Origin: an uncultured Alphaproteobacteria bacterium
Lineage (GTDB): Bacteria > Pseudomonadota > Alphaproteobacteria > Rs-D84
Direction: 5' to 3'
DNA: 64,000 nucleotides
NCBI GenBank assembly: GCA_944392535.1
Contig: CALXWY010000001.1
Span: 248,001 to 312,000 of the forward strand
The notes under the pieces are model-generated. The model saw nothing but the letters and a program-made list of their open reading frames with translations, searched no databases and had not been told where the DNA came from. Positions 6,812-45,182 of this stretch are shown here, in pieces (within the stretch, counting starts at the first letter, position 1; each line of letters begins with the position of its first letter). Position numbers and translations under genes: made by a program.

Positions 6812-7276
6812 ATGAAACAAGAATCAGGACGTTCAATGATTGAAATGATGGGTGTGTTGGCCATTATGGGGGTTATTACGGTCGCGGCAATCGCTGGGAT
6901 AAACAGCGCAATGAATATGCAAAAGCGTAATACTGTTAATGATGAGGTCTTGCAAATGGTTGCCCAAGTGCGCCAAACATTCAGTGAATATGACGATTTT
7001 TCAAACATAAATAATGCAACAATTTTTGGCGCAATTGGCATGTCAAATCAAAATCCATATGGCGGCGCGTATGAAATTTCCGTAAATCCATCAAATTCAC
7101 GCCAGTTTGTTATATCTATCACAGGGTTATCAAAGTCTGATTGTGAATATTTTGTTACCAAGGGATGGGATGGATCGGTCGGATACGAAATGTCTGGACG
7201 TACGCAGAGTGGGGCCAGTGGCGATTGCACCAGTTCGGGGGACCAGAATGTTGTGCAAATAACATATGGCGAATGA
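6812..7276 (+). CDS. Type IV prepilin-like protein
   Basis: The N-terminus has a class III signal: a short basic leader ending in Gly6, then RSMIEMMGVLAIMGVIT, with Glu at position +5 after the predicted prepilin peptidase site, running into a hydrophobic helix. This matches type IV pilins and PilS-type pseudopilins. The rest (about 115 residues) contains two Cys (CEYF and GDCTSS), which could form a D-loop disulfide as in type IV pilins. AGAGG lies upstream of the ATG. No pilus assembly genes are nearby, so whether it is a pilin or a pseudopilin is open. Its stop lies 18 bases before the next gene. Confidence 0.7.
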   Translation: MKQESGRSMIEMMGVLAIMGVITVAAIAGINSAMNMQKRNTVNDEVLQMVAQVRQTFSEYDDFSNINNATIFGAIGMSNQNPYGGAYEISVNPSNSRQFVISITGLSKSDCEYFVTKGWDGSVGYEMSGRTQSGASGDCTSSGDQNVVQITYGE

Positions 7277-42900: not shown

Positions 42901-42930
42901 AAATCCCGCCGTGTGGCGGGATTTTATATT
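42901..42930. terminator. Hairpin terminator, copy 1
   Basis: A 10-bp stem (42901-42910 with 42915-42924) with loop GTGT. The T-tract follows on the plus strand; the minus-strand gene ends at 42924, so it can act on both. The same stem and loop recur at 43446-43470. Confidence 0.85.
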
Positions 42931-43109
42931 GACTGTAATGGATGATGCGTTACATCAATGAACAAAATTAATTCGTATACAGTTGGATGTTGTTGGTCTG
43001 TGGTGATTTGATAATATCCGGATTCATCTGTATTGAATATGTCGCACATAACAAATACCGGAATTTTTTGTTTATGGCGTACGTGTTCTATTTCTTGCCC
43101 TAATGTCAT
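42924..43109 (-). CDS. Small HTH-like protein under a structured leader
   Basis: A 61-residue protein starting MTLGQEIEHVRHKQKIPVF. The spacing LGxxIxxxRxKxxIP resembles the first helices of XRE-type helix-turn-helix proteins, but the domain is short and the second half (ESGYYQITTDQQHPTVYELI) is unusual. It has a strong ribosome binding site, GGGGGG directly after the attenuator's T-tract. It is preceded by a promoter and a 190-base structured leader. It may be a small regulator. Identification is tentative. Confidence 0.5.
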   Translation of the reverse strand: MTLGQEIEHVRHKQKIPVFVMCDIFNTDESGYYQITTDQQHPTVYELILFIDVTHHPLQSI

Positions 43110-43299
43110 TGTATCCCCCCAAAAAAATGTAATAAAAAACCACCAGAAAAAATCTAAGTGGTTGGAGGTTGATTACTATGAAAGATATAGTGCCGCTTAT
43201 TCAATATATTCACGACCCTCCAACCAAACAGGTTGGAATTTCATCCAATGGATGTCTTTCAGGGGTAATCACACCCCGCAACAGCAACCCGCCATTGCA
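43110..43299 (-). ncRNA. Structured attenuator leader, copy A
   Basis: On the minus strand the leader contains, in order: hairpin GGGGT/ACCCC (43277-43262), hairpin CATCC/GGATG (43254-43242), CCAACC paired with GGTTGG (43236-43231 with 43225-43220), the conserved GTGAATA, the segment CACTATA with ACTAT/ATAGT, CCTCCAACC (43168-43160), and a terminator stem AACCAC/GTGGTT (43163-43158 with 43143-43138) followed by T residues. GGTTGGAGG (43225-43217) can instead pair with CCTCCAACC, which removes the terminator arm. The order of elements is the same as in copy B. Confidence 0.7.
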
Positions 43300-43305
43300 G
43301 ATGCT

Positions 43306-43334
43306 ATTATAAAAATCCGTTTTGTTTATTGCAA
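43306..43334 (-). promoter_or_regulatory. Promoter of leader copy A
   Basis: On the minus strand TTGCAA (43334-43329), a 17-base spacer and TATAAT (43311-43306). The start is expected near 43299. Confidence 0.7.
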
Positions 43335-43442
43335 TTTGTTTTTTGTCATAAATTGTAATAATTTTGTACTGATAAAAATATTGTCATTTTGCCATTTTTA
43401 ATACGTCCCTGATTTTTGGGATTTTCCATCGGTATTTTTAAT

Positions 43443-43473
43443 AAAAAATCCCGCCGTGTGGCGGGATTTTTTT
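43443..43473 (+). terminator. Hairpin terminator, copy 2
   Basis: A 13-bp stem (43443-43455 with 43460-43472) with loop GTGT and a long T-tract. The core AAATCCCGCC-GTGT-GGCGGGATTT is identical to copy 1 at 42901-42924. It sits upstream of the second barrel gene, whose promoter is not clear. Confidence 0.8.
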
Positions 43474-43525
43474 GCGGACTTTGTTCTTGTTGTTTATGTT
43501 TGCACAGACGTGTAATTATTGTGGT

Positions 43526-44290
43526 ATGGCGCATGGTATAAAATTATTTTTAATATTTACGGTATGCTATATTGCTGGATACTCATGCGCACATGCCGCG
43601 CGATTGGATGTCAGTCATATCAGTCAATCTGGTGAATTTTCTGCATCGTTTGGTGCGGCGTTCAAGACTGGTGCAAATCGTGATAATACGACCCAAACAG
43701 ATTTTTTATCTGGACGTGTACATGAATTATCACTGGATTTGGATTATACTTTTTTAGATGATTGGACGATTTCATTCAGCACGGACAATGATTATTCTGA
43801 TTCACAGATTGGTGTAAAGTGGAAGCTGATAAAATTTCATGAACTGAAAATTGATTTTATGGCGGACTATGGCATTGCATGGACAAAAAACGCCAAAACA
43901 GATGTACGTTTGGGGAATAATAATTTTGATTTTGGAATGCGTGTTCATGGTATTGCGTTGCAGGATTTTCAATGGGCAGTGAAAATCATGGGCCAGTTTG
44001 TATTTGCAGAACCAAAAAACTTTTGGAATATAAATCTGACCGCAGAAGCGATGTATTATTTCCATCCAGATATTGCCGCCAAGTTTGAATTTGAATATGA
44101 CTTTAATCAGATTAGTGCACCAATAACACAATATGATCGCACAATTCATTTTGGAATAATATATAATATGTCTAATATTGCGTCAGTGCATCCTTATGTA
44201 AAATATCACTTTAAGACCGATACAGCAGACAATAATTATATTCCCGATAATTTTTGGAAAATTGGGGCAGAGTTTTCAGTAGAATTTTAA
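43526..44290 (+). CDS. Outer membrane beta-barrel protein
   Basis: The protein starts at the ATG at 43526 (MAHGIKLFLIFTVCYIAGYS, cut near AHA), giving 254 residues; longer frames from 43472 or 43496 would start inside or just after the preceding terminator. The mature part is a regular series of amphipathic strands and ends KIGAEFSVEF with a C-terminal Phe. It looks like a small porin-like or opacity-type barrel. No strong ribosome binding site is seen. It lies between the two copies of the structured leader. Confidence 0.68.
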   Translation: MAHGIKLFLIFTVCYIAGYSCAHAARLDVSHISQSGEFSASFGAAFKTGANRDNTTQTDFLSGRVHELSLDLDYTFLDDWTISFSTDNDYSDSQIGVKWKLIKFHELKIDFMADYGIAWTKNAKTDVRLGNNNFDFGMRVHGIALQDFQWAVKIMGQFVFAEPKNFWNINLTAEAMYYFHPDIAAKFEFEYDFNQISAPITQYDRTIHFGIIYNMSNIASVHPYVKYHFKTDTADNNYIPDNFWKIGAEFSVEF

Positions 44291-44382
44291 GCATCTATGA
44301 TGGTGGTTTGACGCATAATGCATAACAATTAATTTTTGGATTGTGTTGTACTTGCCGGTAAAGGTTTATGATAAAAATTTGC

Positions 44383-44412
44383 TTGGATTTTTATACAAAT
44401 ATAAATTATAAT
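44383..44412 (+). promoter_or_regulatory. Promoter of leader copy B
   Basis: TTGGAT (44383-44388), an 18-base spacer and TATAAT (44407-44412). The start is expected near 44419. Confidence 0.65.
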
Positions 44413-44418
44413 ATTTTT

Positions 44419-44615
44419 TGTGGCGTTGGATTAACGCCATGGGGTGTCAAGACCCGAAATGCGGCGTTGCGGTATGCGACGATAAAGCTCCAACCATTGG
44501 TTGGAGGGCTGTGAATAATGCGTTTACGCAAAATAAGCACACTATACCGTATTGTAGTCTTGAACCTCCAACCACTTGAAAATTCTTTCAGTGGTTTTTT
44601 GTTTGGGGGTGGATT
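44419..44615 (+). ncRNA. Structured attenuator leader, copy B
   Basis: In order: hairpin GGCGTT/AACGCC (44422-44438), GGGT/ACCC (44442-44455), CGTTGC/GCGACG (44465-44481, loop GGTAT), CTCCAACC/GGTTGGAG (44488-44506), the conserved GTGAATA, CACTATA, and then CCTCCAACC (44565-44573), overlapping the terminator stem AACCACT/AGTGGTT (44570-44576 with 44590-44596) and its T-tract. GGTTGGAGG (44499-44507) can alternatively pair with CCTCCAACC, which would open the terminator. GGGGG (44605-44609) is the Shine-Dalgarno. It is on the opposite strand to copy A. Confidence 0.72.
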
Positions 44616-45182
44616 ATGAGAAAGCTTATATTTATTATCGCTGTCTGCATGCTGTACCACAACGCGTATGGTGCGATAGGACAACCATGCAGCGAGCCGT
44701 GTTTAAAAGGAACAATCCCACTACCAGATAGTTGGGATTGTGGTGTGTGTCCTGCTAATACATATATGGATGAGATGTTATGTCCCGCACCCGAATTATA
44801 TGAATGTAAACCATGTCCCGCGGGTACAATAACAATTGGCGATACAGCCGCCGATCATGACAGTATTGATGACTGTGTTGTTCCACCTGTTTCTTGTATG
44901 TCCGGATATTATTTGCCTGCCGGTTCTGCAACATGTACGCAATGCCCAAAAAATTCATATTGTCCGGGTGGGGAATATACATCATCTGGTCAAGATAGTG
45001 GTATTATTGCATGTCCAAATGATACCAAATCACCGATTGGTTCTGACAGCGCGGATGATTGTGGTCGTATATTACATATTGGTGAATATGTTTTATACTT
45101 ACGCACTGCAAAATTAACCAGTCCAGCATTGCATGTAAAAATAGGTGATGTGATATATTATGGGGATGCGTTTCCCGCATAG
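44616..45182 (+). CDS. Exported Cys-rich protein under leader B
   Basis: 188 residues with a signal peptide (MRKLIFIIAVCMLYHNAYGA). The mature part has about twenty Cys residues arranged as CPxG..C modules (PCSEPCLKGTIP, CVPANTYM, CPAGTITIG, CTQCPKNSYCPGG), similar to the C-terminal part of 15372-16829. It ends RILHIGEYVLYLR, LTSPALHVKIGDVIYYGD. It is likely surface-exposed and disulfide-bonded. It starts directly after the structured leader, with its own terminator-based control. No known function. Confidence 0.75.
   Translation: MRKLIFIIAVCMLYHNAYGAIGQPCSEPCLKGTIPLPDSWDCGVCPANTYMDEMLCPAPELYECKPCPAGTITIGDTAADHDSIDDCVVPPVSCMSGYYLPAGSATCTQCPKNSYCPGGEYTSSGQDSGIIACPNDTKSPIGSDSADDCGRILHIGEYVLYLRTAKLTSPALHVKIGDVIYYGDAFPA

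Follow-up and report, generated by a model that had tools for sequence, protein, structure and literature searches.

The C4 RNA of phages P1 and P7 is linked to the ant genes, and sRNA-Xcc1 (Rfam family RF02221) has so far been described as a trans-acting sRNA. The former resides in the transcript of the very gene that it controls, carries two complementary segments, a' and b', and is tied to phage immunity, and many C4-like sRNAs are present in Acinetobacter baumannii (PMC5320573). The latter was mapped, with its ends, as an 88-nt RNA (PMC2996969), and in Xanthomonas integrons it lies upstream of symE (PMC12444791). Here we compare with these RNAs two putative transcription attenuators, leaders A and B, from a 64,000-nt stretch of an uncultured alphaproteobacterial genome (hereafter the window), together with their relatives, which offer an entry to gene control in the order Rs-D84 and related groups, uncultured bacteria of the gut and of termites.

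Two leaders of one type in the window

The first-pass annotation of the window had pointed to two structured leaders on opposite strands, with common sequence blocks and with a terminator stem, T-tract and GGGGG Shine-Dalgarno sequence at the end of each. All these parts are present in both leaders (Table 1), the Shine-Dalgarno sequence reading GGGGG(G), and the leader type is indeed shared; the two downstream genes, described as unrelated, stand less alone than it seems, given that both belong to families that recur behind such leaders. The motif AATAAGC-N1-4-CACTATA occurs twice in the window and not once in 100 shuffled versions, the folding energies of A and B compared to shuffled sequences correspond to z -4.8 and z -5.8, respectively, and TATAAT is located immediately 5' of each leader. 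At the gathering score, the sole Rfam match in the whole window is a tRNA, and at E<=10 the leader region yields just terminator look-alikes and other chance matches. A BLAST search with leader B, together with a pattern search, identified six close copies in the 951-kb genome, from which a covariance model, R1, was built.

Table 1. Positions of the parts of leaders A and B and of the genes behind them, in window coordinates.
Feature	Positions	Strand	Basis
A promoter -10 TATAAT, with TTGCAA 17 nt upstream	43306..43311	-	sequence
Leader A, whole element	43131..43304	-	R1 match, 156.5 bits
A P1 hairpin	43278..43298	-	fold and covariation
A 5' module, hairpin P2a GGGG..CCCC; other-state partner of the loop is 43170-43176	43262..43277	-	
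A 5' module, second segment (P3 5' strand); partner is the P7 loop	43255..43261	-	
A strand a of P5, TCCAACC	43231..43237	-	fold
A strand b, GGTTGGAGG; partner is a (terminator state) or c (antiterminator state)	43217..43225	-	
A P6, conserved inner loop GAATATATTGAATAA	43188..43216	-	
A P7 hairpin, antisense loop	43175..43191	-	
A strand c, CCTCCAACC, common to antiterminator stem, closing stem and terminator	43160..43168	-	
A intrinsic terminator, AACCAC..GTGGTTTTTT	43134..43163	-	sequence and fold
Gene after leader A, 61 aa, without Pfam match	42924..43109	-	
B promoter -10 TATAAT	44407..44412	+	sequence
Leader B, whole element	44414..44603	+	R1 match, 169.7 bits
B P1 hairpin	44420..44440	+	fold and covariation
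B 5' module, hairpin P2a	44441..44456	+	fold and covariation
B P2 (terminator state), loop TCAAGAC with GTCTTGA	44447..44453 with 44557..44563	+	
B 5' module, second segment (P3 5' strand); partner is the P7 loop region	44458..44464	+	
B P4 hairpin	44465..44481	+	fold and covariation
B strand a of P5, CTCCAACC	44488..44495	+	fold
B strand b, GGTTGGAGG, 5' end of the RF02221-like domain	44499..44507	+	
B P6, conserved inner loop AATAA/AAATAAG	44509..44540	+	fold and covariation
B P7 hairpin ACTATA-CCGTAT-TGTAGT, antisense loop	44541..44558	+	covariation
B strand c, CCTCCAACC	44565..44573	+	
B intrinsic terminator, AACCACT..AGTGGTTTTTT	44570..44600	+	sequence and fold
Gene after leader B, 188-aa secreted Cys-rich protein with Ephrin_rec_like-type repeats	44616..45182	+	

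Copy number and phyletic spread

In the genome that contains the window, R1 detects 18 copies at E<=1e-11, and the RF02221 model adds five divergent ones, for a total of about 23; one of these five scores weakly (E 0.07), its promoter, both halves and downstream gene being recognized by eye. The same genome holds a second subfamily (L241, L242, L244, L245 and L248), with a main stem like GGTCGGGGGG/CCCCGACC, which precedes autotransporter-like and PAP2 genes, is nearer to RF02221 and was missed by R1. Copies were found with R1 in 56 of the 59 sampled genomes of the genus; the RNA is present in 173 of 183 genomes and all 13 genera of the family, and in 186 of 201 genomes and 21 of 23 genera of the order. 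Across the class, 23 of 385 sampled genomes contain matches, including about eleven families outside the order, with genome sizes of 0.9-2.2 Mb. A closer count in seven genomes of about 1 Mb at E<=1e-5 gave 26, 50, 52, 55, 25, 36 and 7 copies, the genome with 26 copies being a single contig of 1.0 Mb. To our knowledge of published riboswitch counts, for a single cis-acting RNA to reach at least 50 copies within 1 Mb would be exceptional. Thus, the covariance-model search that had been proposed at the outset returned many homologues, and these show covariation (see below). Named matches include Candidatus Enterousia intestinigallinarum, E. excrementavium and metagenome-assembled genomes from the ruminant gut; Candidatus Enterousia has been placed in the reduced-genome order Rs-D84 (PMC12306168). 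The genome of the window presumably belongs to this group as well.

Elements also occur in tandem, two or three in a row (L040:1501-2096, L036:1036-1710, L053:1245-1680, L178 and L179), each with its own promoter and terminator and apparently with just the last one preceding a gene. A viral origin of the window-type element was considered and rejected, given that, of the 9 viral contigs with the motif, no more than 3 carry the full element and two of these share the same one. The complete elements on viral contigs are L234:12016-12197, L238:764-945 and L237:8438-8617; those of L234 and L237 lie beyond phage tail genes and are probably situated at prophage borders.

Architecture and two exclusive folds

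From 5' to 3', the elements consist of hairpin P1, a 5' module (P2a, GGGG..CCCC, and the segment next to it), hairpin P4, P5 (strands a and b), P6, P7, a short segment, strand c, the terminator and the Shine-Dalgarno sequence. The loop of P1 is often GUGUU, the inner loop of P6, GAAUAUAUUGAAUAA, is conserved, and the unpaired P6 loop GAATAT..GAATA is kept in most copies. A perfect TATAAT is found near the start of 69 of the 147 family members, compared to 7 after shuffling, and a T-tract (at least four T) at the end of 139 of 147 in one count and of 141 of 148 in another.

Two folds can be drawn. In fold T, helix P2 joins the P2a loop to the segment preceding c, helix P3 joins the following 5' segment to the P7 loop, a is bound to b, and c is bound to the terminator arm. 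In fold A, P2a and P7 form local hairpins and b pairs with c, in a stem that is incompatible with both a:b and the terminator; P2a and P2, as well as P7 and P3, may either exclude each other or coexist as kissing loops. By sequence, the elements thus combine the two features of an attenuator, namely a terminator hairpin with a U-tract before the gene and an alternative stem, b:c, that overlaps the terminator arm. The minimum-energy structure is fold T, and it includes the terminator in 95 of 111 elements. Forcing b:c leads to fold A at a mean cost, over the 111 elements, of 11.3 kcal/mol in the full RNA and of 8.7 kcal/mol before the terminator arm is made.

The pairing of GGTTGGAGG with CCTCCAACC, which had been proposed to exclude the terminator, is supported, and both exclusive folds covary. 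For each segment, the duplex energy reached with the cognate partner was compared to the energies reached with the partners from other elements, using 76 sequences less than 75% identical. The cognate partner was favored for P1 (z -26), P2 (-26), P3 (-30), P6 (-15), the terminator (-13), b:c (-12), P7 (-11), P4 (-9), P2a (-8) and P5 (-6), that is, for all ten helices, mutually exclusive ones included, with 0 of 5000 permutations for each, counts that are not exact probabilities because the tested sequences are related. In an alignment of 99 sequences, double-sided changes are seen in 43 of 46 pairs of state T and in 30 of 35 pairs of state A, with 87.5% of cells paired versus 34-46% when slid for state T and 92.6% versus 32-50% for state A. 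Within this set, b:c is too constant because the loci were fetched by a pattern containing GGTTGGAGGG; in unselected members and in other orders, b and c, and mostly also a, change together (also in L072 and L073). Between lineages strand b reads GGTTGGAGG, GGCAGGAAG, GACTGGAAG, GGCGAGAGG, GGGCGGATG and others, each time with a matching c. In the genome of the window, 15 of 17 tested elements pair best with themselves (z -12.6), so the copies appear to be insulated from each other.

Two other roles of strand b were rejected. It changes freely provided that c follows, which does not fit a T-box (UGGA facing the 3' end of tRNA-Cys), and GGAGGG within it, a candidate Shine-Dalgarno sequence, is not kept in distant members.

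Relationship with sRNA-Xcc1

The core had been described as absent from the known riboswitch classes and as a candidate new class; this view has to be revised, since the 3' half appears to be a distant relative of RF02221, albeit with scores below the curated cut-off of 53 bits. In cmscan searches, RF02221 is repeatedly matched in register by divergent copies over this half. A first search yielded five such distant loci and a second one six, the best E value over all Rfam being 1.6e-6; the six score 51.7 (L110), 45.4, 35.7, 33.8, 33.7 and 30.0 bits, and all of them align to the full length of the model (1-87). None of the examined window-type copies reaches the cut-off (best 51.7 bits; 46.2 in the genome of the window), and A and B themselves do not match RF02221, either at the gathering score on the window or at E<=10 on the region. 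That genome contains 8 RF02221 matches, 3 of which coincide with independently detected R1 elements. The main stem of RF02221 corresponds to b:c and its two inner hairpins to P6 and P7, the letters of the inner loop agree, and the window-type elements have the fold of the RF02221 consensus, namely the main stem, a P6 whose inner loop is conserved, and P7. Judged from these sequences, common descent of window-type elements and sRNA-Xcc1 is likely, albeit unproven because all window-type matches stay below the cut-off; a compact fold could in principle arise twice.

RF02221 was detected at E<=1e-4 in 55 of 399 sampled Pseudomonadota genomes, in 39 of them above the cut-off. We analyzed 22 loci, 19 from this search and 3 from a plasmid collection (one from Neisseria, two gammaproteobacterial), which are denoted gamma/beta for short, L269 among them being an alphaproteobacterium. 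These loci show a double complementarity: the P7 loop, together with the segment after it, can pair with a module located about 100 nt upstream (z -10.6), and the same two stretches can pair with the ribosome-site region of the gene that follows (z -8.5). The latter pairing is not present in every one of the 22, with L249 as the clearest exception. The next genes tested encode SymE, Bro-N, KilA-N, P22_AR_N and ORF6N proteins. RF02221-like sequence is also present in 40 phage records; each of the two pairings amounts to roughly -19 kcal/mol in an E. coli phage and likewise in a Vibrio phage, in the record of which sRNA-Xcc1 is annotated and followed by a small gene and a DNA-binding protein. 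From these complementarities, sRNA-Xcc1 appears to be a leader of the C4 type by which the adjacent downstream gene is silenced, and RF02221 can be re-read accordingly, from a supposed trans-acting sRNA to a C4-type cis leader; in the open-access literature searched, we found no description of RF02221 as a leader of antirepressor genes.

At L253-L272, L249-L252, L273 and L274, the 5' module copies the ribosome site of the antirepressor or SymE gene, and a hairpin resembling an intrinsic terminator, with a CCGNCAG-type loop, is located between the two targets. In L262, the RF02221 element is preceded, at a distance of about 1.3 kb, by a sub-threshold match to c4-2 RNA (RF02944, 34.8 bits; L262:2890-2958, minus strand); this control region may thus harbor two antisense control RNAs.

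The window-type elements share with sRNA-Xcc1 the stem b:c, the P6 inner loop AAUAnAA../..GAAUA, P7 with an antisense loop, a second antisense segment before c, and an upstream 5' module complementary to both segments (z -34 for 75 window-type elements). They differ by the additional P1 and P5, by the lack of ribosome-site pairing (z -1.4, 384 of 5000 permutations in the 75 elements) and by their targets, which are surface proteins and XRE regulators as opposed to antirepressors or SymE at sRNA-Xcc1 loci. In 18 elements of other alphaproteobacterial orders, ribosome-site pairing is weak (z -2.7). A T-run follows the window-type elements, whereas at the gamma/beta loci it precedes the element (17 of 22) and never follows it (0 of 22). 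Given the absent ribosome-site pairing and the T-run that is now 3', translation seems to have given way to transcription termination as the level of control, a direction that we infer from the wider distribution of RF02221, which extends to phages, plasmids and integrons.

Downstream genes

Altogether 146 distinct genes begin within 80 nt of the 169 examined elements, and 23 elements are without such a gene. These figures argue against the terminated RNAs of about 180 nt being independent products that act in trans on mRNAs or on each other, as does the best pairing of each copy with its own partner, which points to action in cis. Such products would fit the tandem copies, each with a promoter and terminator before a single gene, and have parallels in the mapped ends of the 88-nt sRNA-Xcc1 (PMC2996969) and in the many C4-like sRNAs of A. 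baumannii (PMC5320573). On balance we consider this reading quite improbable, but tandem elements without a gene of their own could perform part of their function as free RNAs.

A signal- or membrane-type N-terminus is predicted for 85 of the 146 downstream genes compared to 22 of 75 window ORFs (Fisher p 6e-5; the predictor is crude and the background small and rich in ribosomal genes). The largest groups include 28 XRE-type HTH proteins, 22 small secreted proteins, 13 Cys-rich secreted proteins of the kind encoded behind B, and 9 of the kind behind A; outer membrane barrels, prepilin-like, autotransporter-like, PAP2, GmrSD and glycosyltransferase-like proteins were found as well. Genes of the Cys-rich family of B follow 5 of the 6 closest copies, and the 61-aa protein behind A, one of the 9 similar ones, represents a small family located behind the same leader in other genomes. 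One genome carries three near-identical XRE genes (MSVVLVDNAYYGQIIRRARK...; L064, L066 and L069), the leaders of which are also nearly identical, yet differ in their cognate segments. A prepilin-like gene (GRSMIEMMGVLAIMGVITVAAIAG) is present at 6812-7276 of the window, with no element found before it; similar genes follow the leader in other orders (L097, L107 and L111).

The association with Cys-rich proteins raises the question of ribosome-mediated attenuation, in which the cysteine supply for these proteins would be sensed through a leader peptide rich in Cys, such as MAGCCCGV (leader A) or MCCCCG (copy c5). Several of the closest copies carry Cys codons in P1, and at least two early Cys codons in an ATG frame occur in 12 of 148 elements compared to 1.9 in shuffled sequences, an excess that may follow from the conserved GUGUU loop of P1. 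Most copies, however, lack such a frame or lack Cys codons in it, copy c4 has none, and the same RNA precedes XRE, outer membrane and pilin-like genes. Compelling as it looks in several of the six close copies, this reading is very improbable and was abandoned for the full family (12 of 148). The short Cys-rich frames in P1 (MAGCCCGV, MCCCCGASQ and MATMCYCCVASH), located at 43300-43270 of the window (minus strand) and in copies c3, c5 and c6, belong to a minority of copies, mostly before Cys-rich proteins.

No common pathway was found among the 146 genes behind the 169 elements. This result bears on the proposal in the first-pass annotation that the leaders may be riboswitches, for which nothing points to a metabolite. 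In such a scheme, a metabolite or second messenger bound at the junction and the P6 inner loop would shift the folds, and the copies would constitute one regulon; the two-state terminator/antiterminator design, the unpaired P6 loop conserved in most copies and the broad set of surface proteins are all compatible with it. Variability, however, is highest in the paired cognate segments rather than around a fixed pocket, the downstream genes have no pathway in common, and the pairing partners of the related RF02221 units include ribosome sites of the same mRNA. That the fastest-changing parts are the cognate antisense pairs is what an antisense switch, rather than a ligand pocket, would lead one to expect; a riboswitch is unlikely.

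Proposed mechanism and origin

In our opinion, the elements are probably self-antisense transcription attenuators, each comprising an antisense RNA and its own decoy target, and related to a phage control RNA. The transcript would start at its own promoter and could take two folds. In fold T, the 5' module would hold both antisense segments of the 3' module and a would hold b, leaving c free to form the intrinsic terminator, so that RNA polymerase would stop before the gene. In fold A, with the 5' module and P7 as local hairpins, b:c, the core stem of sRNA-Xcc1, would remove one terminator arm and the gene would be transcribed, read-through in the cell being the presumed outcome. We suspect that the choice between the folds is made by something that acts on the conserved P6 inner loop, or by folding kinetics.

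The putative ancestor is a C4-like sRNA-Xcc1 of phages, integrons and plasmids, whose two loops would additionally cover the ribosome-binding site of the gene that follows. In the Alphaproteobacteria with reduced genomes, the ribosome-site target would have been lost and the terminator placed over strand c, if the direction of change is as proposed above; the unit would then have spread to dozens of loci, with a matched sequence pair particular to each. At present, the elements appear to set the timing of production of surface proteins and of small DNA-binding proteins. A more far-reaching scenario, which is conceivable and which we advance only tentatively, is that an antirepressor-control RNA of phages or integrons was domesticated, in host-associated Alphaproteobacteria with reduced genomes, into a genome-wide system of up to about 55 insulated attenuators per approximately 1 Mb, read through the P6 loop by one factor and serving as a main control of the cell surface.

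Comparison with known systems

As in terminator/antiterminator riboswitches and amino-acid attenuators, two exclusive folds of the window-type elements would decide termination before the gene. Unlike in those systems, the switch strands are copy-specific, self-complementary antisense sequences. Identity with C4 RNA, suspected from the gene context, was rejected given that neither the C4 (RF01695) nor the c4-2 (RF02944) model matched any scanned element at E<=10. With C4 the elements share two antisense segments complementary to sites in their own transcript (P2 and P3); in contrast to C4, these segments pair with the 5' module rather than with the ribosome site, the fold is different, and it is a terminator that would be acted upon. 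The C4-like group of A. baumannii is similarly a phage-type antisense RNA multiplied on a chromosome, but consists of processed sRNAs with presumed trans targets (PMC5320573), whereas every window-type copy combines promoter, leader and terminator in one unit, which lies next to a gene and carries a matched target of its own.
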